From Romanomermis culicivorax (taxonomy: Eukaryota; Nematoda; Enoplea; Mermithida; Mermithidae), in NCBI GenBank assembly GCA_963922205.1, contig CAWUHX010000083.1, positions 310,001-374,000 on the forward strand: DNA of 64,000 nucleotides, in the 5' to 3' direction. Within the stretch, counting starts at the first letter, position 1. The number at the start of each line of letters is the position of its first letter. Below the pieces are notes generated by a model, which did no database searches, had not been told where the DNA came from, and was given only the letters and a program-made list of their open reading frames with translations. The translations under genes and the position numbers were made by a program. Shown here piece after piece: positions 643 to 62,688 of this stretch.

Positions 643-3600
643 TTACAGATCTAATGGTACAGTTGTTATACCATCATCTAGAACTTTTCGCTTTATGTAC
701 AGATAAGGTAGACCCCGTTTCTGCTGTATGTATGTCCACATTTTACTATCTCCCATCATTCTGAATCCTATATTTTCTCCATTCCAGCATTCTTGAGTTT
801 CTAAGACAGAGACATATTTGTCAAAACTGAGGGTATTGGTCTTTTTCATAACCCTTTTACAACTTAGCTTCTGGCTCCCTTCTCCTATTCCCATATATGT
901 TTTGGCAGACAAACAGCACATTGCTGTGCCTGCCCACTCTACTTTCAGTAAGCCAGGAGTTCTCTTGTCATCTAGCTTAGTCACAAACCATTTCGGGTAG
1001 ACTTGTGTCATAAATTGGTCTTTCAATTCTGGTCTAACTGTATTCAAAAGATTATCAGTTGATATTGCAAGGTAGATACTATCAGTGTCCGTTTCCATAC
1101 ACTGATAACATGCAGGGTCGAAATACTTTTGTAAAATATCATAAAAAAATTCTAACATGTGAATTTTTGCCCAATTGTATACTGATAGACCAACTACAAT
1201 TGGTAAGTCCAGGACTATTTCTCTTTTACGCGGTGAACTTCATAGCAGTTTTCTGTGACACATTTGATCTTGTTAATGTATGGACTTAGACTAAGTTCAG
1301 CAGCCCTCTTGTAATCTGTATAGAAAACATCAACATGTTTTTCTTTATTTGTCAATGTCTTTCCATATCCAGTATTTCCAAGAAGCTTGAAAGTGTCTGC
1401 AATCATGGAGAGATCAGGGTTAGAATCACCCTCTTGTCTATGCCTGGTGACTTTATCCTTGAATTCTTTGAAAGGGGTTGTCTTATCAAACTGGATGACT
1501 TCATAGATTTTTTCAAGTATCAGACCATGTTTCACCAAGAATTGTACCATGGGGGTAGAAAGCAAGATCTCTTTTCCAAAATAACTGCTAATGAGGTTCT
1601 TCCTCGGCTGATTGAGCTGATTTATTCTTTCAGCATACTCTTTCATGAGGTTACCAGCATCGTTCCTACCCACTTCAGCATGTTTTATAATAGGAGGAAA
1701 GTCTGCATATGTTTCTTTGAGGTGATCAGGGGTATAAATATCAACTTTAATGAAGCCAAAGACTGCACCATCAAGAATAGCTTGCTCCATAGAGTTTATA
1801 GCAACATATTTTTGGAACTGATATCGTCGGAAAAAATTGGGGCATGATTTTGTTCTATTCTTAATATATTCCTGGCGTTGTTCAACCCATTGGCACTCCC
1901 AGATAGTAATCAGATTATAACCTAATGATCTAATATAGGCTTCTTTTTCCAGCCTGTTCTTATGTTCTAAATCACTATCTTTTTGCTGGTTGATTTTACT
2001 AAGAGAACAATTGTGGCAATGCCAATAGCATCCATAGAATTCATAGATGCAGTTGGTATCTTGACAATATCCATCAACAGGCAAGTGCTTTGAACCAATA
2101 CACTTTTCTTTGCCATTCCCAAGGCTTTGTATAGGATGGCCAATTTTCCAAGATTCCTGTTCAAGCCATTCAATAGAGATTTTTTTGGCGCTATGCACTT
2201 TTTGGAATCTGTTTCCATCTAGCACCCAGTGATCGAAAAACCCTGTTGGTGTAGGCATGGATTGGGCCCAGAGGTAAAGAGCATTGAAATCCAGACCGAT
2301 GATGGTTTTCACTGGTTTTTCTGGGTTGTTCCTAATGAAGGTCTTATCTCTAATTGCCAATCGAGTCATCACCATAGCCAGCCCACCTCTCATGCTGGAC
2401 TTTAGAGAATAATATACATCCTTTGTTTTTTCAGAAAAAAGAGAAAACTGAGTATCTGGTATACTCCTAAACAAGTATCTTTCAGTTACACCAGGCAAAG
2501 ACATGGCCTCTCTAAAAATATCAATACCAAATTGACCCCAATACAATTTAGCCATTGTACTTGTTGCTTCCAGGAAGGGCACAACATCACGCAAATTGTA
2601 GAAGACCAAGAAATCTTTTAATGTCTGCATCTGGTTGGTTGCCCAATACTGTTGGCACATTTCATAATCTTCTTCGGAGATTGTCTCTTTCCTAAGGGTA
2701 CTATAGAAAGCTTCACGTGGAGGTAATGCAGTATCATTCAGTTTGTCAAAACAGTCAAGATATTCATAAGGGAATTTAGCTTTTAAAAGACTAGCCCCAT
2801 ATGCTTTCATGAAACTATCCAGGCTAAAACCTGGAGCAACATATAGGGATATATCGAGGAATTTGAGATTGTCTGTTGATAAGCAAAGAAAAGTGCCATT
2901 CCTCAATATGGCTTTGGGCCATTGCTTTTCCCCATCCCCCCTAACTTGTTGGACCAACTTTGGAAATATGTTTCTTTTAATGAGATTAATATCATACTTA
3001 CCTGAATTGAAACCCAAGCAAGTTAGTTGTGAACAATACCTTTGAAGACGATTCTTAACTGCTATAATTGAGCTGAGATAGCCCTTTTCTCGCCTAAAAT
3101 CTTTTTTTTTTATTCTCCAGTTCCAGGACATAAGCCTTGATATCTTCCAAATGAGCCTCAATTCGCTCAAAAACATGGGCATACTTTTCAGTCAAGAGCT
3201 TTTTCTGATGAAAGCTGATCAATTCCAAGTGACTTAACATCTTCTGAACCAAAGTATTGGCATCTTTCTCTACAAAACAAATTGGCTCAAAACCAGGAAT
3301 ATTGGTTGCTATAGCCCAAGATACTGGCCAATGTTGTGCTGTGAAAATCAATTTTTCAGAATTCTGTTGTGGGTGCTTGACCAGTATTGCTTCAAAATCA
3401 AACACTGCAAAAAAAGGACAAAAATGGTCCTCAGTGTCTACAATAATATTTAGTTCTTCCAACTGTTCAAAAACTGACTTTTTCACATGATACACACCTC
3501 CTGGAAATTTATGTACAGTTTCTCCTCTTTGACAATGATTTTCAGTATGATTGTTAAGCTTTTCTCTTTTTTTAAATAACCAGCTACAGCACAAGCATGA

Positions 3601-4833
3601 GTATCTTTTTGCGTACTGGTCTAAATTAACAATGTAGCTATAGTGAGCTGCATAATTTTCAGAAAATGAAACGTCTAAATTCAAAAGTTTGTTACTCCTT
3701 TGAACAACACTTTTCCAGCAGACTGCAATATTTGTGGTCTCATCTATATGAAATACTTGGATATCCACGTGGAACAATTGTTCAATTAGTTTTAGGTCAG
3801 TATATGGAACACCTGCGAAATTGTCTATCAAGGCTTCTATTTTCTTTTTCTGACAGTACTTCATGAAGAGACCAAAAACAAAAAACTTATCCCCAAAGTC
3901 CCCAGTTAGGCATTGAGCTGAACATCGAAATAAGCACAGGTTATCATTAAATTTATTATGCTGTCTATCTTGTGTCATTCCAATAAGATTATGCCGCTGA
4001 TGGGCTATATTATCAGGCAAAAGGAAGTTCTTACATCCCGCAACAAACCCATGCTGTGGTATTACATGAAACTCTATATTAGTTATAAAGTATAGAGCCC
4101 ACTTGGTATCTGGTCGAGTAAACTTTTGCTCAAAATCGATGTTTTTCATAGTTTCAGTCAGCTGTTTTACATTTTCACCATTCTTAATCAGTACAGGGTT
4201 ATCTAACAAGGTAAAATTATTATGACAGGCATACCAATATTTTACCTCACCTGTTTCTCAGTTTTTCAGGAGACATCCAATAGCCCCATTGATCCGAAAG
4301 CATTTTTGCTCCTTGTTATAAATATCAACCAACATTGCATAAAAATTACCATTGAATGAAGCCCATTCATAGTTGTAAGTATGATCAAGTAAATTGGTTG
4401 TAGATTCCTTAGTTTGGATGAGTCGCTGATATTGTTCAATTGCCTTTTTTGCATCATCGGGGTATTCTTCCATATTATCAATTTCGAATTTGTCTCCTGT
4501 AGGCTCCGCATTATTGTCTACTGTAATACTTGAGGAAGAAGTTGTTCCTTGTTTCACATTAGGCTGTACTTCTAGACATGACCGAGTATGGTCCTTTTTC
4601 AGAAGTTCAGTGAAATCTGAGAAACCTTTTCCACAATATAAACAAATGGTGTCTGTATGTTTGACATTCAAATGCCTACTAAGATTCTTCTTTTGCGAAA
4701 AAATGGCTGAACATTGTGGACACCTAAATCGAAGTCCATTATGGTATGAATCCATATGCTGTTTTAGATACCATTTTTCAGAGAATTGCTTTCCACATTC
4801 CATACAATTAATGTGTGTCTCCATAATAATCAA
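643..4833 (-). CDS. POLB: Polinton family-B DNA polymerase with N-terminal zinc fingers, interrupted
   Basis: Replicative, presumably protein-primed, DNA polymerase of the element. The gene starts at 4833 and reads leftward. The N-terminus has C2H2-type fingers (C-x2-C ... H-x4-H near residues 10-31 and a second just after). Exonuclease motifs follow: FDFEA (exo I), GFNSGKYD (exo II) and YNLRD (exo III). Polymerase motif A is DFNALYLWA, motif B is KLLGNTGYGK and motif C is ETDTDSIYL, so all catalytic motifs are present. The reading frame is broken three times: an in-frame TGA at 4258-4260, a frame change at the ten-base T run near 3102-3111, and another frame change near 1226-1232 at a short A run. 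Frame is kept across the TGA, so that break is a single nonsense codon and not an intron. The two frame changes sit in homopolymers and could be assembly errors. Divergently oriented from the integrase and capsid genes. Confidence 0.93.
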
Positions 4834-5448
4834 TAACAGAAAATTTTAATACAAATTTGCAGAGGTCACCTTCCTTCAAGTTGATAGAAATCACAAATGA
4901 GCTTACTCAAATTTTTTCTGCTTTTATACTTTCCTTGGTAAGATTACTGTGGGCTGATTTGGAACAGCAAAACCTACTGATCAATCCCATCAAATGTCAC
5001 TTTTTCTGATGATTCATGCTGAAAATAAACTGTTTTTTTCTGATTTTTTCTTATCTCACTTTTTGATCTGCCTTTCAAGTCAAATTTAATCAAAATGCAC
5101 ATATAAAAACTTTCTTGCTTACGTCACTTTTCTTTAGACAAGCAGTCACCTTATGAGTCATTTTCCCAACTATCTTTGTATAAAAGTATTTCTTGAGTTT
5201 TAGCTAGCCTTGATTCACAACAATGAGCATGTGAATCACTTAAGCTTCTAATACTGTACTTCACTGCTCTCTAAATTTGATCTCTTTGCTACTTTCACTA
5301 GTGGAAAAATATGCCAGATTTAACCATCTTTTCATCTACATAAAATGTTTCATGTAGTGGGAAGGTTTTCAATCAATAAAGTTTAGGTAAATAAACAACA
5401 ACTGACTCTCTTTGAAAATTGATTGGGTGTTTTTTATGTATTGCTGGC
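4834..5448. promoter_or_regulatory. Divergent intergenic region between POLB and the rightward genes
   Basis: A 615-base AT-rich gap between the polymerase start and the first rightward promoter motif. It holds TATAAAAACTT at 5102 and TATAAAAGTAT at 5179 on the plus strand, similar to the motif seen before other element genes, but no open frame of note follows them. It probably carries the divergent early/late control signals and possibly an internal origin, which is inference. Confidence 0.45.
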
Positions 5449-5702: not shown

Positions 5703-5713
5703 ATAAAAGTTTG
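5698..5713 (+). promoter_or_regulatory. Degenerate TATAAATAAAAGTTTG motif before the integrase
   Basis: An expanded version of the element motif that overlaps the stop of the previous gene and lies 24 bases before the integrase ATG at 5722. Confidence 0.45.
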
Positions 5714-5721
5714 ACAGCAGC

Positions 5722-6786
5722 ATGCTTGAAAAAATGGACAAGCTCTTTGAAAGCATATACTTCAACCCAAGTACAGGGTATTGTAGTGTTCAGAACCTGT
5801 TACGACAGGCAAAAGCTAGTAATCCCAGGGTCACTCTGCATTCTGTTAAGGAATGGTTACAGAAACAGCCAACATATACTGTACACAAGTATGCTAGGCG
5901 CCATTACCCCAGGAATAATGTTCTAGTTACTGATATTGATGAACAGTGGCAAATGGATCTTGCAGACCTCAGTTCACTCGCCAGGCATAATGATGGATAC
6001 AAATTCCTTTTAAATTGTATAGATGTCCTGTCAAAATTTGCATGGTCTGTACCCTTGAAAAATAAAAATACATCATCTATTTTGCATGCCTTTCAAACAA
6101 TTTTGAAATCTGGCAGAAAGCCACAAAAAATACAGACTGATGCTGGTACAGAGTTCACAAACAAAGCCTTCCAGGCCTTATTAAAGAAACTTGGCATTAG
6201 TTTTTTCATAACTGCTAGTGAAACTAAGGCTAGCATTGTTGAGCGGTTCAATAGAACTTTAAAGGAAAGAATGTGGCATCATTTTACTCAAAATAATACA
6301 TACAAGTACCTAAACATTCTACCCCACCTGCTATGCTCTTACAACTCGACTAGGCATAGGACCATAGGTGTTGCTCCCATTGATGTTACTGATGAGAATA
6401 AAGCTGAAATTGTTGAAAAGCTTTTCAGGAAATGTAAGTATAGTTTACAACTTAAACTGGTCCCTGGTGACAAGGTACGCATAAGCAAAGTCAAAAGGAC
6501 TTTTGAGAAGGGTTACACTCCCAATTGGAGTGATGAAGTTTTTGTGATTCGTGAGCAAAAAGCTAGATATCCTCCTGTATATACGGTAGAAGATCAGCTG
6601 GGAGAAGTCATACAGGGTGTATTTTATGAGCCAGAATTACAGAAAGTTGATGAGATTACAGATGTCTGCATTATAGAAAAGATTATATGGAAGAGAAAAA
6701 GGGCTGGGAAAACTGAATACTTTGTTAAATGGAAGGGTCACCCAGATAAATTCAATAGTTGGGTGACAGATTTGATAAAACTATAG
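5722..6786 (+). CDS. INT: Retroviral-type DDE integrase with C-terminal chromodomain
   Basis: Catalyses insertion of the linear element into chromosomes. The 354-residue protein has an N-terminal helical region. The RNase-H-like core carries acidic residues at D79 (context WQMDLADL), D140 (QTDAGTEF) and E174 (SIVERFNRTLKERM), with 33 residues between the last two. The SH3-like region (PGDKVRISK) lies at about 233-290, and a C-terminal chromodomain reads YFVKWKGHPDKFNSW at about 330-346. The catalytic triad looks intact. Chromodomains on integrases can bind histone marks and steer integration, as known for chromoviruses, and the same role is inferred here. The ATG at 5722 is preferred over the overlapping frame at 5711, which runs out quickly. 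Confidence 0.96.
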   Translation: MLEKMDKLFESIYFNPSTGYCSVQNLLRQAKASNPRVTLHSVKEWLQKQPTYTVHKYARRHYPRNNVLVTDIDEQWQMDLADLSSLARHNDGYKFLLNCIDVLSKFAWSVPLKNKNTSSILHAFQTILKSGRKPQKIQTDAGTEFTNKAFQALLKKLGISFFITASETKASIVERFNRTLKERMWHHFTQNNTYKYLNILPHLLCSYNSTRHRTIGVAPIDVTDENKAEIVEKLFRKCKYSLQLKLVPGDKVRISKVKRTFEKGYTPNWSDEVFVIREQKARYPPVYTVEDQLGEVIQGVFYEPELQKVDEITDVCIIEKIIWKRKRAGKTEYFVKWKGHPDKFNSWVTDLIKL

Positions 6787-7742: not shown

Positions 7743-7753
7743 TATAAAAGTTG
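7743..7753 (+). promoter_or_regulatory. TATAAAAGTTG promoter motif before the ATPase
   Basis: Exact motif 31 bases before the ATG at 7774. It lies downstream of a nearer-5' ATG at 7732, which argues that translation starts at 7774. Confidence 0.7.
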
Positions 7754-7773: not shown

Positions 7774-8397
7774 ATGGCTATAAAATTTAATCACCCCTTT
7801 ACATGTATTGTTGCTGGCCCTACAAAAGCGAGTAAAACAACCTTTGTAAAGAATTTAGTACTAAATGTGAAGTACTTGATTGAACCGGTTCCTGAACAGA
7901 TTCACTGGTTCTTTAGTGAGAAGCAGCCAGTCTACAATGACTTGTCTGGCAGAGTCAACTTCTATCAGGGATTACCTGACATGAACTTGATTAGAGAGCT
8001 CGGTCCTGCACCCCAACTTGTTATACTAGATGATCTCATGCAGGAAATGGCTAAAAATAAGCACCTGGACATTCTTATTACTCGTGGATGTCATCACATG
8101 AATGTGTCTGTGATACACATTGTTCAAAATGTTTTCTTCGAGGGTCTAAGAACATCTAGAATAAATGCAGAGTACCTTGTTTTGATGAAGAATCCTGCAG
8201 ATAGGCTCCAAGTAAAAACTTTGGCAAGACAGTTGTTTCCTGATAAAGTAAAGTACTTTCTCGAGTCCTTCGAAGATGCCACGTTCAAACCATACAGTTA
8301 TATAACTATTGATCTTTCTCAAACAACACCTGATAAACTTAGACTCAGAGCTGATATTTTTTCAAAATTTTCCACGATATATGTGCCAAAAGTATAA
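7774..8397 (+). CDS. ATP: Genome-packaging ATPase, A32/FtsK-HerA type
   Basis: A 207-residue P-loop ATPase expected to drive DNA into the capsid. The Walker A loop is GPTKASKTTF near residues 15-24, and Walker B is LVILDDLM near residue 83-90. A downstream helix-rich region with ITRGCHH and HIVQN matches the sensor part of this family. The frame is open from 7732, but the promoter motif at 7743-7753 lies after that ATG, and the ATG at 7774 opens a protein that begins with the first beta strand, as usual. The stop is fused to the next TATAAAAGTTG motif. Intact as read. Confidence 0.95.
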   Translation: MAIKFNHPFTCIVAGPTKASKTTFVKNLVLNVKYLIEPVPEQIHWFFSEKQPVYNDLSGRVNFYQGLPDMNLIRELGPAPQLVILDDLMQEMAKNKHLDILITRGCHHMNVSVIHIVQNVFFEGLRTSRINAEYLVLMKNPADRLQVKTLARQLFPDKVKYFLESFEDATFKPYSYITIDLSQTTPDKLRLRADIFSKFSTIYVPKV

Positions 8398-8403
8398 AAG
8401 TTG
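8393..8403 (+). promoter_or_regulatory. TATAAAAGTTG promoter motif overlapping the ATPase stop
   Basis: Exact motif; its TAA is also the ATPase stop codon. It lies 36 bases before the ATG at 8429. Confidence 0.7.
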
Positions 8404-8428: not shown

Positions 8429-8773
8429 ATGCCTTGTGATCATCTTAGACATAATATTGATTACATCAGGGTACTAGCTAAGGCTAAACCCAAGCAACGT
8501 AAAGCTATTATTAGCACCGCTGATCCTGAACTGATACTTTGTTTGTGTGAATGTATACTCAACTTCCTCGAAGGCAATATAAAAGTTGACAAAAAAACCT
8601 TGAATAAATTAAGTTCCCACAAGGGACATTTACGAGTATTAGCAGATGAGAAAACAAGTCTCAGCAAAAGACGAGACATTCTAGAACAAAAAGGTGGATT
8701 TTTGCCTGTATTGTTGGCACCAATCTTAGGAATAGCTGGACAATTACTAGCTGATGCAATTATAAAAAGATGA
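8429..8773 (+). CDS. Polinton virion-type protein with Gly/hydrophobic C-terminus, 114 aa
   Basis: The N-terminal half is basic and helical (RVLAKAKPKQRKAII, then an ECILNFLEG segment). The C-terminus after residue 88 is a Gly-Gly start followed by a hydrophobic stretch (FLPVLLAPILGIAG). This layout recurs in Polinton/adintovirus genomes next to the packaging ATPase and resembles small precursor core/membrane-active proteins, with GG-phi positions suitable for the adenain-like protease. The upstream ATG at 8309 lies inside the ATPase gene and before the TATA motif, so 8429 is the better start. The stop overlaps the next ATG as ATGA. Confidence 0.75.
   Translation: MPCDHLRHNIDYIRVLAKAKPKQRKAIISTADPELILCLCECILNFLEGNIKVDKKTLNKLSSHKGHLRVLADEKTSLSKRRDILEQKGGFLPVLLAPILGIAGQLLADAIIKR
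8578..8588 (+). promoter_or_regulatory. Intragenic TATAAAAGTTG motif
   Basis: Exact motif inside the 114-aa gene, 192 bases before the ATG at 8770. It may serve the downstream gene, which otherwise has only a weak TATAAAAAG directly abutting its start. Confidence 0.45.
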
Positions 8774-9207: not shown

Positions 9208-9498
9208 ATGATTCTGAAAGGCACCAAAATAAGTGGAACCAACATTGTCGATTTGATTTCTAATGTGGCAAGAGTTGGTCCGAGGCGCCAGCAAGCAATA
9301 GGGTCAGAATTGTTTGTAAAGAACCTCTTAAAGGAGAATGTGCCTCGAGATCTTTTTGTAAATAAGTCCAGGTTAAATGTTCGAAGTGAAAGCGATGAAA
9401 CATTTGCTTCCCCGAGTGGACCCGTAGATGGAAAAAAAATTAAGGCACCCAAAAGCATTACACCAAGGTCTAGATGGTTAGAATTTGGAAAAGTATAA
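9208..9498 (+). CDS. C-terminal part of the same virion-associated protein (96 aa)
   Basis: In phase with the upstream ORF across the TGA at 9190. It contains a GTKISGTNIVDLI segment; a G-x-NIVDL pattern recurs in Polinton proteins at this position. A basic C-terminal half follows. If translated on its own it would start at the ATG at 9208, but no TATAAAAGTTG motif precedes it. Its stop is fused to the next motif at 9494. Confidence 0.65.
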   Translation: MILKGTKISGTNIVDLISNVARVGPRRQQAIGSELFVKNLLKENVPRDLFVNKSRLNVRSESDETFASPSGPVDGKKIKAPKSITPRSRWLEFGKV

Positions 9499-9504
9499 AA
9501 GTTG
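9494..9504 (+). promoter_or_regulatory. TATAAAAGTTG promoter motif before the pVI-like gene
   Basis: Exact motif overlapping the previous stop codon, 41 bases before the ATG at 9535. Confidence 0.7.
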
Positions 9505-9534: not shown

Positions 9535-9957
9535 ATGAGACAATACTTTAATCCGGAAGATTATGCAACTTGGCTTCAGTACTACACTGAACAAGCTGAA
9601 CAAACTGGCTATGGTTTCAAAGGCTTCAAAGGCACTCCCTATCAACGCGGAGGAGGTCTAGGAAGCTTCTTTAGATCATTATTCAGAATGGCCATTCCTG
9701 TTATTAAGTCAGCTGCTGGCCATTTTGGTAAGCAAGCGCTATCTACAGGTGCACATATTGCTGGAGATTTAGCCGAAGGTCGATCTATTAAAGAGTCTCT
9801 AGAAGAACATGGCCGAGCAGCACTCTCCAAGTTGGCCCACAGTGCTGGAGATGCCCTGCAGACTGGGAGAGGCTTGGGGACTAGACCAAAAGGTATAAAA
9901 GTTGAGAAAAATGATATATTCTCAAAGAAAAAGAGAAGAAAACATGGCTCTAATTGA
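9535..9957 (+). CDS. pVI-like minor virion protein, 140 aa
   Basis: The N-terminus has aromatic and acidic residues, then a Gly-rich junction RGGGLGSFF at residues 38-46. An amphipathic/hydrophobic segment (FRMAIPVIKSAAGHF) follows, then Ala/His helices and a strongly basic tail (KKKRRK). A Gly-Gly site followed by an amphipathic helix is the layout of adenovirus pVI-type cement/membrane-lytic proteins that are matured by the viral protease. A similar role is inferred. Located directly before the major capsid gene, which overlaps its 3' end in another frame from 9944. Confidence 0.72.
   Translation: MRQYFNPEDYATWLQYYTEQAEQTGYGFKGFKGTPYQRGGGLGSFFRSLFRMAIPVIKSAAGHFGKQALSTGAHIAGDLAEGRSIKESLEEHGRAALSKLAHSAGDALQTGRGLGTRPKGIKVEKNDIFSKKKRRKHGSN
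9894..9904 (+). promoter_or_regulatory. TATAAAAGTTG promoter motif before the major capsid gene
   Basis: Exact motif inside the 3' end of the pVI-like gene, 50 bases before the ATG at 9944. Confidence 0.7.
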
Positions 9958-11245
9958 TACAATTTCTAGTATTAGTACAAAGTCTGAATTGGACTTTTTC
10001 ACTGTACCTCCCACACAAGTAGTAATTAAACGAGGCTACTGGGATGAAGTTAACCCGATAAATCCTATCACAAATGATGGTCCATACGAATTTCGTATAC
10101 CTCCAGATCCTCACATGGTTCAGCTTAGCAAAAATTATCTGTATATGACCTTGAAAATTACTTACACTGTTCCTGCTGGTGGAGCTGCACCAGTAATTGC
10201 ACCTATCAATCTGATTGGTAAAGTATTTTTCCGACAAGTGAAGCTCTTCCTGAATGGTCGTCTTATTCATGATAGTGGGGATAAGTATGCCTACAGAGCA
10301 TTCTTTGAAACTGATTTAAATTTTGGTTTTGATGCTAAAAATAGTCACCTACAGTCTTCTTTGTATACTGTGGAAGCTGGTCCTAAAATAGATACTGCTG
10401 ATTGCCAAGGTTTTAAAGACAGAGTAAAGTACTTTGAAAATGGTCAAACAGTTGAAATAACAGCTCCTCTTCATATTGATCTTCTAATGCAAGATCGATA
10501 TTTACTCAGCAATACTGAGCTCAAACTGGAATTGATTCGCAATAGTAATCCATTTGTATTACAGTGTCCAGCTGGTGATGCAGAAAATGCAAAATTGGAA
10601 GTTTCCCAGATGAAACTCTTCATCAGGAAAGTTGAAGTTCTCGACAGTGTTGGATTGGCTCTGGAAAAAGCAATGTTAAAGACATCAGTCAAGTACCCAA
10701 TTAGACGAGTCCAAATGGTGAATCTTCATATTGCTAGTACAACGCAATCTACACCTCTGAATACTCTATTCACTGGTCAGTTGCCACATAGGATGATTAT
10801 AGCATGTGTCGATGCGGATGCATATCGTGGAGAAATAAAAAAATCTCCATTTAATTTTAAATGTTACAGTATAAGTGAAGTCAAGGTTGTCTCTGGTGGT
10901 CAAGCTTTTCGAGCGACTCCATTAAGACTTGATTTTGCCAACAACAAATATATTCGAGCGTATGATCAGCTCTTTGAAACTCTAGACATGGCTAAAGATA
11001 ACAAAGGGAATGGCATTAGCAGACTTAATTTTAAAAATGGACAGTGCTACTTTGCCTTCGATTTTACACCTGATGAAGATGATAGTGGACATTGGGACTT
11101 GATTAGAGATGGTTCCACAAGTATAGAATTGACGTTTGCTGATAGGATACCTGATGCAGGTATAGAAGTTATTGTTTATGCAGAATTTGACAATTTGATT
11201 ATGATCGATAAAAATAGACACGTCTTTAATGACTATACTGCATGA
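9944..11245 (+). CDS. MCP: Major capsid protein (hexon-like, double jelly-roll type)
   Basis: A 433-residue beta-rich protein matching the conserved Polinton/adintovirus hexon family, which C. elegans annotation also knows as transposon-derived F54H12.2-like proteins. Recognisable blocks include GYWDEVNPINP, GPYEFRIPPDP, LSKNYLYM, RQVKLFLNGRL and DSGDKYAYRAFFETDLN in the first half, and a second beta-rich half with IEVIVYAEFDNL near the end. It would form trimeric capsomers of an icosahedral shell. The frame is open from 9902, but the ATG at 9944 follows the promoter motif and gives the conserved N-terminus. Intact; its stop overlaps the protease start as ATGA. Confidence 0.93.
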   Translation: MALIDTISSISTKSELDFFTVPPTQVVIKRGYWDEVNPINPITNDGPYEFRIPPDPHMVQLSKNYLYMTLKITYTVPAGGAAPVIAPINLIGKVFFRQVKLFLNGRLIHDSGDKYAYRAFFETDLNFGFDAKNSHLQSSLYTVEAGPKIDTADCQGFKDRVKYFENGQTVEITAPLHIDLLMQDRYLLSNTELKLELIRNSNPFVLQCPAGDAENAKLEVSQMKLFIRKVEVLDSVGLALEKAMLKTSVKYPIRRVQMVNLHIASTTQSTPLNTLFTGQLPHRMIIACVDADAYRGEIKKSPFNFKCYSISEVKVVSGGQAFRATPLRLDFANNKYIRAYDQLFETLDMAKDNKGNGISRLNFKNGQCYFAFDFTPDEDDSGHWDLIRDGSTSIELTFADRIPDAGIEVIVYAEFDNLIMIDKNRHVFNDYTA

Positions 11246-11736
11246 ATACCTCTGAAATCTACTTCTTGATCAATAGAGATCAATCTCTCAGACAAATCTT
11301 CAATGGGGTATTTCCTATAGACTGTTTACCACCTCTTGATACTGTACCCGCAGCATTGGTTGTAAATCTGGACAAGCAAGATGAACCTGGTTCACACTGG
11401 GTAGCTCTGTTTGTTGATAAAAAACATGCATGTTGTTATTTTGACAGTTACGGCCTGGAACCACCTCAACAGCTTAGGAATTACATCAAGACTATATCTA
11501 CTTCTTACAAGTGCAATACCAAATGTGTTCAACAGTACCTGACTGCTACATGTGGTCAGTTATGTGTATACTTTCTCGTGTGGATGGTTAGAGGTATAAG
11601 TATGACAGATATTGATGCTAGTTTGGAACAAAGCTATGCTGATGAATTTGTCACTGGCTTCATCAACAGTCTCTTTAGAACAAATACTCCCATATATGAT
11701 GATGCATTTTTATTTGAACAGCTCAACAGAATATAA
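11242..11736 (+). CDS. PRO: Adenain-like maturation cysteine protease
   Basis: A 164-residue Ulp1/adenain-fold (C5-type) protease that cleaves capsid precursors. The catalytic His lies in GSHWVALFV near residue 52. The acidic partner is in CYFDSYG near residue 71, and the oxyanion Gln and nucleophile Cys lie in CGQLCVYFL near residues 107-111. All triad elements are visible, so the enzyme should be active. The start overlaps the major capsid stop by four bases, implying linked expression. Likely substrates inside the element are the proteins with Gly-Gly sites at 8429-8773 and 9535-9957. Confidence 0.94.
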   Translation: MNTSEIYFLINRDQSLRQIFNGVFPIDCLPPLDTVPAALVVNLDKQDEPGSHWVALFVDKKHACCYFDSYGLEPPQQLRNYIKTISTSYKCNTKCVQQYLTATCGQLCVYFLVWMVRGISMTDIDASLEQSYADEFVTGFINSLFRTNTPIYDDAFLFEQLNRI

Positions 11737-11742
11737 AAGTTA
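11732..11742 (+). promoter_or_regulatory. TATAAAAGTTA promoter motif overlapping the protease stop
   Basis: One-base variant of the element motif, 23 bases before the ATG at 11755. Its TAA is the protease stop. Confidence 0.65.
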
Positions 11743-11754
11743 GTTTCTACCATA

Positions 11755-12552
11755 ATGACATATCAAAAAATGGATTTTTCACAGTTTTATGTAACATTAC
11801 CGAGCAATGCTCAGAGCGATCCGACTAACTCGGCTTCAAATTTTAGTATCAGGTTGCCTCATAGATTGATTTTGCATGGTGAATGGGAATGTGCACTTTG
11901 TGAATTCATCTACCCAAATACGTGGTTCAATATAACACCTAGTGATAGTGTAATAAAATTTTATGATCTTCAGACCAATACTAGGCAATTACTAAAAGTA
12001 CCTTCTACAAGGTATGAATCTATAATAGATTTAATTGAAGCTATTCAACAATCTATCAGGTTGTTGAGTGAACAGGAAAAAGTTCCATATAATGAGTTTA
12101 TTGAATTTTCATACAGGAGATTAGCCAGAGCAGTTGTCCTGAAAGTGAACTTGACTAGAATCAAGAGCATAAAATTAAGTGAGCCTTTACTCTACCTGTT
12201 GGGCTTTGAGAAATCACAACTAGAAACAACTTCATCTGAAAAACTGAAAATTGCTGCTGCACATCCTGCTGATATGAAGGCTGGTCTCGAAACTATGTAT
12301 GTTTATTGTAACATCATTGAACAACAGATTGCTGGTGATATTTTAGCCCCCCTCCTCCGTATTGTTAATATAGAAGGAGCTTTTGGTGACATTATAGATA
12401 AGATATATATAGCTCCTCACTACTTGCCTGTACTCGTAAAAGATATCGATTCTATCGAAATTTCAATTAGAACAGATCAAGACAAACCTATAAAATTTGT
12501 CACTGGTAAAACAATTGTGAAGTTACACTTTAGAAAGCGAAGTTTATTCTAA
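11755..12552 (+). CDS. Minor capsid protein (penton-like, single jelly-roll type)
   Basis: A 265-residue beta-rich protein with the conserved Polinton penton blocks: FYVTLPSNAQ near the start, NFSIRLPHRL, LHGEWECALCEF, then VYCNIIEQQIAGD, LAPLLRIV and PHYLPVL, and a final IVKLHFRKR. Expected to occupy five-fold vertices. Intact. It starts right after a TATAAAAGTT motif and is followed after two bases by the TBP-like gene, so the two may be co-transcribed. Confidence 0.92.
   Translation: MTYQKMDFSQFYVTLPSNAQSDPTNSASNFSIRLPHRLILHGEWECALCEFIYPNTWFNITPSDSVIKFYDLQTNTRQLLKVPSTRYESIIDLIEAIQQSIRLLSEQEKVPYNEFIEFSYRRLARAVVLKVNLTRIKSIKLSEPLLYLLGFEKSQLETTSSEKLKIAAAHPADMKAGLETMYVYCNIIEQQIAGDILAPLLRIVNIEGAFGDIIDKIYIAPHYLPVLVKDIDSIEISIRTDQDKPIKFVTGKTIVKLHFRKRSLF
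12489..12499 (+). promoter_or_regulatory. TATAAAATTTG motif before the TBP-like gene
   Basis: Variant motif in the 3' end of the penton gene, 66 bases before the ATG at 12555. Confidence 0.4.
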
Positions 12553-12554
12553 AA

Positions 12555-13067
12555 ATGCAAGTACAAAACATTACTGTCACAGCTGAACTTGGCTGTCGAC
12601 TCAATTTGGACTCACTTGTTAAAAAATTGGATGGCTCTAAACTGACTATGGGAAAATTCAGGTCACTGATTTGGCACCTCCATGATCCAAAATGTTGTCT
12701 ACTATTGTACGAAAATGGGAAGCTCATATGCGTGGGCATTAAGGCAATTCAGCAGGCTGTGAAAAGTATAGATTATGCAGCAGAAATACTGCTCAAACTC
12801 GGTTATCAGCCAAGACCCAGGAAATTTAAAATGTGCAATGTTGTTGGGTCATATGCCCTAGATCACTGTATAAATGTTGAGGAATTCTATAACACTCATA
12901 GGGGTCAATGTGATTATTCTCCCGAATTATTTCCTGCACTTAAATATACAATTAACAAGCGCGGCTTATGTGCATTGATTTTTCACAATGGTAAAATTAT
13001 TATTACAGGAGCAAAGACCTACGGTGAACTGGAGAAGAACTTCAAAGAGTTACTTGTCAATTTTTGA
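12555..13067 (+). CDS. TATA-box-binding protein (TBP) encoded by the Polinton
   Basis: A 170-residue protein matching the TBP C-terminal core over its whole length, with the two pseudo-repeats and no N-terminal extension. Repeat 1 opens with VQNITVTAELGCRL and repeat 2 with FKMCNVVGSY. Both minor-groove Asn positions are kept (N5, N95). Of the four DNA-kinking aromatic positions, three are Phe (F35, F126 in PELFPALKY, F143 in LIFHNGK) and one is Tyr (Y52 in LLYENGK). The TGAK turn of repeat 2 is present. Known TBPs nucleate Pol II and related pre-initiation complexes on TATA boxes. Here the element's own genes carry TATAAAAGTTG motifs, so a self-serving transcription factor is inferred. It begins two bases after the penton stop and is intact. 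Confidence 0.92.
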   Translation: MQVQNITVTAELGCRLNLDSLVKKLDGSKLTMGKFRSLIWHLHDPKCCLLLYENGKLICVGIKAIQQAVKSIDYAAEILLKLGYQPRPRKFKMCNVVGSYALDHCINVEEFYNTHRGQCDYSPELFPALKYTINKRGLCALIFHNGKIIITGAKTYGELEKNFKELLVNF

Positions 13068-13159: not shown

Positions 13160-13339
13160 ATGGAGCCTCGCAACTTATGTGGGAAAATTCCTATGCATTC
13201 TGTGCATTATGCTGTGTGTAGATATGTTCAAGCTGGAAGATATAGAGAATTGGGTGCTGATCCTTCACCAATTAAAAGAACGAAAAGGCTGATGAAGAAA
13301 GAATCCACTTGGGATCACAACTATACCAGGAAAAAGTAG
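13160..13339 (+). CDS. Small basic protein at the right end (59 aa)
   Basis: A short frame beginning MEPRNLCGK with His/Cys residues in the first half and a basic second half (IKRTKRLMKKES). It is the last gene, ending 21 bases before the right terminal repeat. It has a TATA-like box at the usual distance, which supports expression. The basic composition suggests DNA condensation or DNA binding, but no family is recognised. Confidence 0.55.
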   Translation: MEPRNLCGKIPMHSVHYAVCRYVQAGRYRELGADPSPIKRTKRLMKKESTWDHNYTRKK

Positions 13340-13360
13340 AAAAAACAAAAAAACAGGTAT

Positions 13361-13403
13361 TGTGGGTACTTTCTATGAAAGTACTGGCGCCACACGTGTA
13401 CTA
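13361..13403 (-). repeat. Polinton right terminal inverted repeat (43 bp)
   Basis: Reverse complement of 158-200. It is immediately followed by TATAGCC, which begins a separate host repeat. Confidence 0.93.
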
Positions 13404-18271: not shown

Positions 18272-20689
18272 TTAAAATTCATCGCTGCTATCTCCATCGT
18301 CATTGTCCGACGACATCAAACATAAACCGGATTCTGATTCCAGGTCAGAATCATTGATGTCAATTACTACTGGATGAACCTGAAAAAATACAACATCAGT
18401 TATTCTATTTTTTTCAGAAAAGATGTGTAAAGAAATATGTAATTGAGCTCAGAATGGCGGACAGGTTACCTAAACTTGGGGCTGCTGCTCTGTTAATATG
18501 TACATGTAATTGGGGCTAGGTGTCATAAGAACTCCTCACAGAAATCATCAGTTATATGGTGACCATCCAAGATTTGCCAATCATGCTGGCTATACGACTC
18601 CCATCAGTCAAAGATATCAATTTTTCATGCTTTTGTGAAAAAATTTAATTATTTTTCCTCAGATTTCCCTAAAATTTTAGTCAATTGATACCCACATCCC
18701 AAAAAAGTCACTGACTTCCCCTACCAGGCCTCAGAGTTCTGTTACATGCATGGTTCTATATACATCTTTATCAGGGTTTTATGTATACAAAAAACGGTGG
18801 ATTTTGGGCTGAACAGGATTAATTTTTACAAAATCCAGTAGCTGTTCTGTTAGGTGACCTAAGGTCTTACAGATGTGCATGCAGCATGCTGCATGAACAT
18901 TACTTCAGACTTTTGTAAGATCTTACTTTAATCAATGGAAGCAAGTTTTGTGAATATTCTTTTTCAATTTTGATGACGTGCCCAATGGCTTTAGACCAGG
19001 CAGTATGATCAATTTTCGTGATTTCCTCCAAAACTAATTGCTTAACATCAGAAATTTTAAAAGTGGTATTTCGACGGGCTATGTTGCCTTTTAATTGAGC
19101 CCATATTAGTTCTATAGGGTTTAGCTCTCAGTGGTATGGCGGTAGTCGTAAAATCTGAATGTTGAATGGTTTCGCCATTTCTTCTAGACTCATCACTTTC
19201 AATTGTCCTGCTTGATTTGATTTGACAATTTTCATTAGATTTGCTTTTTTCATTATAGGATCGTGGGGAATTCGTTTACGATTTAGCCAATCAACGATAT
19301 CACTTTTCTTCGATGAGTTTGTGGGTACCTAGATGGTAAGTTCCAGCTGTATGAGTATGTTCAGAGGTAAAGAATGATGAAAGACTATGCAGCAAGATTT
19401 TGAGTCACTGTTCCTCTGATTCTGACTTTGTGAAACAGGATGATCTGCTCATTGATGAAATAATCATATTTTTGTGTTAAAGATTGCAAATTGATAATAA
19501 AATCTTGTTCTAGATGCTGTTTGGTCGAAAAGTTAGTCACTTACATAGTTACTACCCAATAGTTTTGTAACCTTAAACTAACTTTTTCAAGTAGTCGGGA
19601 ACGGTAAGATGCATTGTCCAGAACAAGCACGGAATTTTCGATTTTAGGAAGTAAAGACTTCAGATGTTGTTCATAGTGATCGGCATTCATATCATGGTGA
19701 TAGTCGGCTTTTTTTCCAGAAATGAAAATGTCGGCACCATTTTCTAAGAAACCATCTTCACTGCCGACGTGGGAAATTATGAGACGTTGACCCTTGCCTT
19801 TCAAAAAATAGGAGTTGAAAAATATTTGATTAATAGAGCTGCAATATAACCAATATGTATTCATCAAATTTTATCATCAGGGAAGCACATGGTCCTTATG
19901 ACAAGGAAGAACATGTATTTTCTTTGATTTAATGTAATTGCATCATAAAATTATCGAAGTAGAGATCAAAGATAAATGACAAAAATTGTTAAAAGGGTGG
20001 GTTCATTTTTACAAAAAAGTAGGGTTTTAACTGCTGTCATTCCTCACCAGATGGATCTTTGTAGCCTAAGGTTAACGAGGAACTGGGATGGATAATGTCC
20101 CGTAAATCTTTTTCAATGTTAGTGTCAATCCACCCTTTTTTTGCGACATATCCAGCATTGATCCAAGTTTCATCTTGATAATAAATTTTCCGATTTTCGC
20201 CACGAAATTTCGTTATTTCTCGAATATAATTGTCACGTTTTTGCATAATTTCTGGTTTTTCGTAGACATGAAGGCAGCTTATGCGATTTTGATACCGAAA
20301 TCCGATTTGCCCGAAGATATGCCACAATGTCGAGGAGCAGACTCGCAAGTCAGTCCATTTTTTTACCTCTTCATTGATCTGTTTTAAATTCACAGGTTGA
20401 TTTTCTCTGTAAAATCGGTGCATTATTCTTCGAATTGCTTCAGAATCTGAAGGGCTTATGTCAATTTTTCGATGACGTTTTTTGAACAATCATTTGCCTT
20501 TTGAAAAAAATATGATTGTTATTCCCATAAATACATCAAAATGTCATGAACCTCCATGGTAAAGGTTAGTTAACCTAGCTATTATTTGTTAAGCAGAACA
20601 TTTTTCCAAAAGAGTCAAGTCATGAGTGAATACAAACATTCTGTATGCTGTTCATTCACATTATTTGCAACTAGTGAGACTCTCTCATT

Positions 20690-60331: not shown

Positions 60332-62688
60332 TCACGTTAAATGGGGGAGTTGGGGAGGTTTGGGTATTGCATCAGGTAGAACATTGTTTTCCCAGTCACA
60401 TTGATGGTGAACCATATCAGATTGATCCTATTACAGTGAGTTAAAATGAAAAAAAGAGGGAGACTTATGTAAGGGTGTCATACTGTAGCAGCAGCATAAG
60501 AAAAAAATTTTTTTCTTCTTCTTTTTTTTTACCACTCAGATGACAGAAGAAGAAAAAAATGGAGGGAAAAATAACAAAGAGCAGAAAATACGAGATTTGT
60601 ACATACGGGTATTAAAGGTGTAAACAGTAGGTTTAAAATTTTTGGGGGCCGGAGGAGTGAGCAACTCTGATAGTTTACGGCAAAATACAAAAATACTGTA
60701 CACAATTAACAGATCACAGCGATGTATGATGTCCAGAATCATATGTGGAGGGTGTACTGTATCATAGGGTCATGGACCACCAACAGTCAGGAGAGGCCGT
60801 CAACCCCTAGAGCTGTGATACCAGTACCCGCGTATGGGTATACTGTAGTTGCAGTATGGGAATAGACACAGGCATACTGTAACGGCACCCACCCGGAGGG
60901 GTACAGTATACCACCCAATTGGAGAGAGAGGCAAAAGAAGAGAAAAAATGAGGGAATTTACAACACAGACTAAATATGTAGGAGATACAAGATTACTCAG
61001 AGGAAGAATACAGAATACTCGATATATAACTTGACTCTGGGGGCTCGACTCTGGGGGAAATTTGACTCTATAGGACAAATAACTCTACTCTGAGGGCAGA
61101 TAACTCGACTCTGAGGACATTTAACTCAACTCTGAGGTCATGGAACTCGACTCTGGGGACAAATAACTCGACTCAGGGGGATTTATTACTCATAGGGGCG
61201 ATACAAACACATGAGATAATTATTGACACATATAGATCACATTTAGATTTCTTGTAAGGGCGATTTCCATCTTACAGTAATAACACTCGATTTCAAGGGA
61301 AAATTTCCGACTTACAGTGGCGGTAATCCGAAATAAGGGCCATTTCCCAACTCAATAGGCAGTATACCAGAATTGGGGGGGGGGTCTCCGATTTATTGGA
61401 TGGCTAGTACCTGATTTTAAGGGGGCTTGTCCGACTTAAAATGGGAATTGACCCGACCTGGGGGTGGTTCCGACCCAAGGGTGAAGTTTTGCACTTAAGG
61501 GCGAGTGCCAGACTTAAGGTCGATTTTCCAGCCTCGCCATGTCACATTAAACGGGAGAGTTGGGGACGTTTGGGTATCGCATCAGGTAGAACATTGTTAT
61601 CCCAGTCACATTGATGGTGAACCATATCAGATTGATCCTATTCCAGTGAGTAATAGGCTATGACTCCTGATGGATACTGGCAATTTCCCCATTCTCCCTA
61701 TTTATTTGGGGGCCTAACCCGGCGAGTGGTGGCTATATGGAGGCCTATAGCTTTCTCTGGTGTTGTCCTGAGGTCTTGTTGTAGGGTAATGGACAATGGG
61801 GCCAGGTTAGGTGTGACAATCCCCGAGTCCTGCTCAGTGAGAGTGGGGACAAGGTCACCCATGAAATGACCTGATTTGTGGGACCCGATTATGAACCAGA
61901 CAGTCCCTTTTTAGCCCAAGCCTGAGAGGTGAGAGCCCTGCCTATCTGGGGAGACCTGGGAAACCGACTTAAGAAGGGTTCCCCCAAAAATATCCCACAA
62001 TAACAATAATCCCCTGAGAAGACTCACCTATTCCTGTTCTTCAAACGATTCGACGAAACGGGTGGCAGGTCCCTGGGAGCTTTCGGTTTTCGGACAAGGA
62101 AGGGGGATGCGATCCACTTGGTTTGTGGGCAACGGGTGTTGGCGATCGGGAGGCGACTCTCGATTGTTTTTCTGTTAACTGGGGCAGTCGGAAACCTGGC
62201 ACGGATGGGGGATGGGTACTGTATGTAGAATAGGCGGGGAACACAGTGAAGAAGAAGGATATTCGAATTTATTCAAATTAGGCGAAAGGCGGCGAACGCT
62301 GACAACAATTTGGATGCAGGGATAAACCCAGAATGAGCCAAGGAATGAACCAAGAATGAACGAAAAATTAAAGAAACATGTCCTTAAAAGGAGCAGGACT
62401 CGGGGATTGTCACACCTAACCTGGCGGCATTGTCCATTACCCTACAACAAGACCCCAGGACAACACCAGAGAAAGCTATAGGCCTCCATATAGCCACCAC
62501 TCGCCGGGTTAGGCCCCCAAATAAATAGGGAGAATGGGGAAATCGCCAGTATGCATCAGGAGTCATAGCCTATTACTCGCTGTAATAGGATCAATCTGAT
62601 ATGGTTCACCATCAATGTGACTGGGATAACAATGTTCTACCTGATGCAATACCCAAACCTCCCCAACTCCCCGTTTAATGTGACATCT
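60332..62688. mobile_element. Element with long terminal inverted repeats inserted in the second PolB gene
   Basis: The end sequence TGTCACRTTAAAYGGG followed by GAGTTGGGGA occurs at 60332 and 61544 on the plus strand and at about 62688 on the minus strand. The 61544 and 62688 arms match over about 300 bases (61545-61845 against 62390-62690), while the 60332 arm matches for about 105 bases. This suggests a nested or partly duplicated insertion. No transposase frame is recognised; the short open frames in both arms are mirror copies of the repeat. Confidence 0.7.
61022..61190 (+). repeat. Minisatellite of about 25-bp units (AACTCGACTCTGAGG)
   Basis: About seven imperfect tandem copies of a unit containing ACTCGACTCTGRGG and GACAWATAA. 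The next 300 bases (61250-61520) carry a second degenerate tandem series built on CCGACTTA-GGGCGATTT. Confidence 0.7.

Follow-up and report, generated by a model that had tools for sequence, protein, structure and literature searches.

The window, by which we mean the whole stretch of 64,000 nucleotides of Romanomermis culicivorax DNA that was analysed, contains at its left end a Polinton (Maverick) that has a gene for a TATA-box-binding protein (TBP) among its own genes. The features of this element are the following.

1-201: inner portion of the left terminal inverted repeat; this arm begins some 390 bp to the left of the window
643-4845, minus strand: broken polymerase region of several ORFs, placed by these ORFs and by an alignment with locus L056
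4258-4845, minus strand: C2H2 zinc-finger ORF (PF00096, E 2.6e-12), upstream of the polymerase pieces and on the same strand
5707-6786, plus strand: integrase with a chromodomain (rve, E 5.3e-13; Chromo, E 1.3e-7)
7774-8397, plus strand: packaging-type (A32-like) ATPase (Pox_A32, E 9.7e-5; 22.4 bits, just below the cut-off of 22.8)
9944-11245, plus strand: major capsid protein, recognised through its relatives
11233-11736, plus strand: adenovirus-type protease (Peptidase_C5, E 7.9e-5, above the cut-off)
11770-12552, plus strand: penton-like gene, a label taken from the initial annotation; its homologues lie beside TBP in other lineages and in contig L001
12555-13067, plus strand: TBP gene, a 170-aa ORF (PF00352 profile and AlphaFold model)
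13160-13339, plus strand: small ORF of 59 aa between the TBP gene and the right repeat, with TATAAATA 43 bp before it
13360-13403: remnant of the right terminal inverted repeat, 44 bp; the full arm is seen in a sister copy

The TBP gene had been described as lying within the terminal repeats and two bases after the penton gene, and both statements hold. The inverted repeats at 158-201 and 13360-13403 (44 bp, 100% identical) enclose the gene, which starts at 12555, the penton-like ORF ending at 12552. The full terminal repeat measures about 595 bp, of which the 44 bp form just the inner end, as seen from a sister copy located 139 kb away on the same contig (C83:448328-462670). The right arm of the window copy (C83:310001-323403) is cut off at 13403, and most of that arm is lacking. 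The sister copy has both arms, with AGTAGT...ACTACT ends, and is flanked on both sides by GATATG, a 6-bp target duplication read from the printed ends; it thus carries the terminal inverted repeats and the 6-bp duplication expected of a Polinton/Maverick. Beyond the repeat the two copies also agree in about 1.4 kb of left flanking DNA, with 99% identity over the whole match, and therefore probably represent one insertion that was later duplicated (segmental duplication).

The coding content is also that of a Polinton/Maverick, with an integrase of the rve type and with capsid, ATPase and protease genes. The capsid ORF itself has no Pfam match; among its 557 relatives, several have a precomputed PF21738 match, and one (P0001) scores 24.2 bits with DJR-like_dom, short of the cut-off of 27. 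No Pfam match was obtained for the penton-like ORF, nor, at 0.01, for the polymerase pieces, one of which aligns (E 8.6e-11) with L056, where the ORF matches DNA_pol_B_2. The polymerase region at 643-4257 on the minus strand consists of several ORFs that overlap one another, and the window copy therefore looks defective there. Outside the element, the window holds an ORF at 20037-20489 on the minus strand that, judged by eye, looks like a transposase fragment, and a long inverted repeat at 61539-62686, with arms of about 297 bp at 97% and 555 bp between them.

The ORF at 12555-13067 encodes a complete TBP core. The PF00352 profile matches the 170-aa product in two stretches, scoring 124.6 bits where the cut-off is 22.9 (E 1.4e-36), and exceeds the cut-off in both repeats, which rules out a chance ORF and bears out the initial annotation, where a full-length alignment with both pseudo-repeats of the TBP core was claimed. 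Among PDB sequences, 35 distinct entries match at E <= 0.1, and their names are those of TBPs or TBP fusions, with one exception named only ECU04_1440 protein; the closest solved structures are TBPs, and the best alignment spans residues 2-165. The AlphaFold model, built from 23 aligned sequences, has a pLDDT of 94.7 and a pTM of 0.84. Foldseek comparison of this model with the PDB gives 44 matches at E <= 0.001, with human TBP at the top (1cdw; TM 0.91, rmsd 1.8), so the predicted fold is the TBP saddle. Compared with predicted viral proteins, the best match is a giant-virus TBP, and TM is at most 0.80 among the 50 matches listed; this difference in predicted fold (0.80 or less versus 0.91) makes a giant-virus origin appear less likely. 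A protein search with the single window sequence returned 30 candidates, none at E 0.001 or better, and PHROGs held no TBP match. The protein is only 32% identical to the TBP that we take to be the host's own, a two-piece PF00352 match at locus C95 that is 85% identical to human TBP. The window TBP is a single ORF; the host gene was matched as two separate pieces.

The TBP gene is a regular, conserved part of a group of Polintons. This was seen by searching the assembly (359 Mb, 595 contigs), where the searches score the best candidates only, so that all copy numbers are lower bounds. PF00352 gives at least 150 matches over the cut-off (the best 150 of 438 candidates). With the window TBP as query, the best 150 of 151 matches merge into 145 loci, including 106 with at least 79% identity to the window protein, 32 with 52-78% and 7 with less. 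Many genomic copies contain stops, and a hand count finds at least 164 residues without a stop in 60 of the 150 matches. The capsid search gives 98 matches at 94 loci, and in 85 of these 94 a TBP match from either list follows within 5 kb downstream on the same strand, typically at 1.3 kb; with the PF00352 list alone the count is 59 of 94. Four of the nine remaining capsid loci have a TBP match within 20 kb. A 25-mer of the inner repeat, allowing two mismatches, occurs 98 times in the assembly (reversed control, 0), with a TBP beside 46 occurrences, and 18 of 21 facing repeat pairs no more than 30 kb apart enclose a TBP. An inward-facing repeat lies within 2 kb of 45 of the 106 close TBP loci, mostly near 304 bp, and of none of the 32 and 7 more distant ones, so the repeat marks the window group, here called lineage A. 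The earlier proposal that the gene belongs to the element is thus sustained, and a lone host pseudogene, the refutation foreseen there, is ruled out by the many copies, the position behind the capsid gene, the low dN/dS in diverged lineages, the occurrence in L001 and the rejected grouping with host or animal TBP.

At least five diverged Polinton lineages in this genome (A-E) carry a TBP. Identity to lineage A is 62-67% in lineage B (L011, L012, L016, L026, L027), about 35-37% in C (L014, L015, L023), 34% in D (L007-L009) and 32% in E (L017); a sixth lineage (L022/L057) is broken. It had been suggested that other Polintons be searched for a TBP gene at the same position. Lineages B and C have it where the window does, behind the penton-like gene; in lineage D (L055) it precedes a penton-like gene, in L001 it is placed elsewhere, and L002 lacks it. 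At L055 a DNA_pol_B_2 gene lies on the opposite strand, and at L056 (lineage E) the DNA_pol_B_2 ORF is near the TBP; capsid genes were not found within the stretches examined at these two loci. The 59-aa ORF that follows the TBP gene in the window has a basic end and is also present after TBP in other copies of lineages A and B (54-85% identity).

Outside this genome, L001 is a deep-sea Polinton contig of 11.6 kb, filed under a planctomycete bin and bearing eight Polinton genes; its TBP adjoins the ATPase gene and is 35% identical to that of the window. Neither a polymerase match nor an inverted repeat was found within these 11.6 kb. L002, a mussel-associated Polinton filed under a mussel-symbiont bin, gave no match to TBP, and neither did the remainder of that genome. 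Searching with a profile built from the window and L001 proteins retrieves 20 database proteins, one of which is L001's own; the gene context was seen only for the latter. Proteins P0121-P0135 form one group in the tree (90/100). Scans of a viral contig collection with TBP, capsid and profile queries gave no relative of use, and the capsid search of a phage collection gave nothing useful. A scan of the viral contigs with a mixed TBP alignment gave 10 loci, with TBP ORFs read in nine (that of L068 is not visible). Judged by motif, these appear to be archaeal-virus TBPs; L063 falls with Methanocaldococcus (99/88), and L065 joins a long branch.

Selection on the Polinton TBP is purifying. Many wide pairs are saturated for dN/dS; the three unsaturated pairs of the window protein, with L029, L032 and L033, give 0.12-0.14 at dS 0.31-0.38. 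Values of 0.28 are obtained for L016 versus L011 and L012, and 0.20-0.23 for the sub-groups of lineage B versus L026 and L027. Recent copies (dS at most 0.10) have higher values, namely 0.37 for L029 versus L032 and L033, 0.54 for the near-identical lineage A pair L032 and L033, and 0.82 for L026 versus L027.

The descent of the gene was studied with a tree of 38 sequences, from which the partial P0136 and broken genomic copies such as L022 were left out. Lineages A-C form one clade (100/98) and D and E another (99/97), and neither falls within the host, human and yeast TBPs. In the AU test, holding A-C with host TBP is rejected (p 0.0026), as is holding them with host and human TBP (p 0.0017); the L001 group is likewise rejected from host and human TBP (p 0.009). 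Capture from an animal TBP is thereby rejected for both. Holding A-C with host, human and yeast TBP (p 0.078) or with the TBPL1 sequence used here (p 0.072) is not rejected. A single clade of all Polinton-type TBPs is not recovered in the tree, nor does the AU test reject it (p 0.41), and A-C may be joined with the L001 group (p 0.33) or with D and E (p 0.25). Lineage A alone, held with host, human and yeast TBP, gives p 1.9e-67; as this constraint splits A from B and C, it is given no weight. The gene may thus come from an older eukaryotic TBP or from a TBPL1-like protein, captured once or more than once.

The contact residues of the protein were read by alignment with yeast TBP. The residues named in the initial annotation (N5, N95, F35, F126, F143 and Y52) correspond to yeast N69, N159, F99, F190, F207 and F116, so that both minor-groove Asn are kept and the four intercalating positions read Phe, Tyr, Phe, Phe. 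Among the groove residues, Val71 and Thr124 are changed and Tyr replaces Phe116 in the window lineage, and Leu114 is changed in the L001 group. Glu188 is kept in all sequences checked and Leu189 in A-E; Glu186 is lost in A-C. The DNA-contact residues are mostly kept, and the contacts for TATA DNA and TFIIB are partly so. Tyr139 is changed in every Polinton-type TBP checked, and Lys138 likewise except in lineage D. We take these two residues, from yeast genetics, to be those serving TFIIA; a literature search on their role in TFIIA binding found nothing. The changed TFIIA-side residues suggest a partial escape from the usual control that the host exerts on TBP.

The motif TATAAAAG, an ordinary eukaryotic TATA box, lies just before several genes of the element.

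7743-7750, plus strand: TATAAAAG, 31 bp before the ATPase start
8393-8400, plus strand: TATAAAAG, 36 bp before a start at 8429
9494-9501, plus strand: TATAAAAG, 41 bp before a start at 9535
9894-9901, plus strand: TATAAAAG, 50 bp before the capsid start at 9944
11732-11739, plus strand: TATAAAAG, 38 bp before the penton-like start at 11770

These distances take a later in-frame Met as the start for four of the five boxed genes, a choice made after the boxes had been seen; the L058 alignments favour the later Met starts, and first-Met starts would put two boxes inside the ORF. The element holds 8 copies of TATAAAAG on the plus strand against 0.57 expected, and 1 on the minus strand; none of 200 shuffles reaches 8. 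The three others on the plus strand are two between the polymerase and the integrase and one within a gene. Also, TATAAAAGTT occurs 7 times against 0.04 expected, with none of 200 shuffles reaching 7. In lineages B and C boxes again precede the corresponding genes; the one in front of the penton-like gene is found in L011, L016, L026, L023 and L058 (44-50 bp). Three other genes of L058 also have a box in front of them; for the ATPase gene of L058 the start is too close to the end to judge. In L001, TATAAAAAG precedes two of five genes.

On the coding strand, the pattern TATAAA(A/T)AG (optional base) is over-represented in the late arm of the window element (7), in L058 (7) and in L001 (5), with 0 of 200 shuffles reaching the count in each case. 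It has no occurrence in the polymerase arm of the window element or in a host stretch. The TBP-less L002 has 1 occurrence, which 29 of 200 shuffles reach, and lineage D has 1 in the 2.5 kb examined, reached by 41 of 200. Lineage D has a TBP without box enrichment, which counts against a strict pairing of TBP and boxes. Upstream of the TBP gene there is no box within 60 bp, nor is there one within 75 bp at the three lineage B loci.

Taken with the protein, the boxes make it reasonably probable, as far as can be read from sequence, that a dedicated TBP brings host TFIIB and RNA polymerase II to the late promoters of the element. The Polinton TBP would be made during the cycle of the element and would bind the TATAAAAG boxes in front of its late genes, those for ATPase, capsid and penton. 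It could recruit host TFIIB through the kept Glu188/Leu189 contact, TFIIB would in turn bring host RNA polymerase II to these genes, and a TBP serving late promoters may be less bound by host control. No RNA polymerase gene occurs among the ORFs scanned in the element, so the TBP would need the host polymerase. That the TBP sets the element's own start sites is supported only indirectly, by the TATA boxes before its genes. Several points go against this promoter reading, namely the lack of box enrichment in lineage D and in the polymerase arm, the absence of a box near the TBP gene, the choice of later Met starts, the higher dN/dS between some lineage A copies, and the changes at Val71, Thr124 and Glu186; host TBP could also serve the TATAAAAG boxes equally well. 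A more ambitious form, somewhat less likely than not, would be a self-specified Pol II promoter system in a group of Polintons, where a resident TBP keeps the DNA saddle and the TFIIB contact, has shed the TFIIA-side control surface and acts on TATAAAAG boxes just before late genes, with initiation escaping control by host TFIID/TFIIA. The gene would then be an old one across Polintons of different hosts, possibly from one acquisition of an early eukaryotic TBP.

It is unlikely, though worth weighing, that the Polinton TBP acts on the host instead, competing with host TBP or tying up TFIIB and thereby lowering or redirecting host transcription, while host TBP serves the boxes of the element. 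The kept DNA and TFIIB contacts with the changed Tyr139 and (except in D) Lys138 would suit such a competitor, and the boxes are of the ordinary eukaryotic kind; however, boxes and TBP occur together in lineages A-C and in L001, and the TBP-less L002 is not significantly enriched, in a comparison of few elements. Somewhat less likely still is another role within the element, such as Pol III transcription, the marking of replication ends or repression of its own late genes. TBP is established as serving all three nuclear polymerases and the gene adjoins one terminal repeat in lineage A, but the boxes have the form of Pol II TATA boxes and stand before protein-coding genes, and the gene is placed differently in lineage D and L001. 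A recently captured host copy, or a decaying passenger without function, is highly improbable and is judged refuted unless the tree model misleads, since against the many copies with stops and the one lineage A pair at 0.54 stand the dN/dS of 0.12-0.28 in informative pairs, the rejected groupings of A-C with host and animal TBP, and the 60 of 150 matches that are long and uninterrupted.

If a dedicated TBP does act at the late promoters, a small virus-like element would be selecting its transcription starts with a single general transcription factor, a case directly open to testing. Several genes of the element carry TATA signals in front, and the element may thereby steer the host machinery to its own genes. 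Polintons are believed to stand near the point from which many DNA viruses of eukaryotes arose. A TBP 32% identical to that of the host, present in the same nucleus and in many diverged copies, represents a natural experiment on TBP surfaces, in which those serving DNA and TFIIB can be separated from those serving regulation.

Although virus-encoded TBPs are known, to our knowledge none is known in a small capsid-coding transposon. The described Polintons/Mavericks share with the window element the integrase, polymerase region, ATPase, protease, capsid, penton-like gene, terminal repeats and 6-bp duplication. They differ in that TBP is absent from L002 and is not among the eight core genes of vertebrate Mavericks given in PMC8097293. 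A word search found no TATA or TBP wording in PMC8097293, PMC11071296, PMC11071308, PMC10120064, PMC11244446 and PMC4028283, and no Polinton or adintovirus TBP was found in the part of the literature that was searched, so that an earlier report is possible. The TBPs described there belong to mirusviruses, to mirusvirus-like elements of algae, to a megavirus and to an algal virus; none is in a Polinton. TBP is present in 59% of mirusvirus genomes (PMC10132985), and Megavirus chilensis expresses a TBP along with its own RNA polymerase (PMC11464507). These viruses therefore encode a TBP as the window element does, but with large genomes and, in the megavirus, an RNA polymerase of its own; among the matches listed, their predicted TBP folds fit the window model less well than human TBP does. 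TBPL1/TRF2, the divergent second TBP of animals, is likewise a divergent TBP beside a normal one, and its kinship with A-C is not rejected (see above). In the sequence used here, TBPL1 is 31% identical to the window TBP and is without three of the four intercalating Phe, unlike the window protein with its Phe, Tyr, Phe, Phe. With cellular TBP (PF00352, eukaryotic and archaeal), the window TBP has in common the two-repeat saddle and both minor-groove Asn; unlike cellular TBP, it is carried by a mobile element, and Tyr139 and, except in lineage D, Lys138 are changed.
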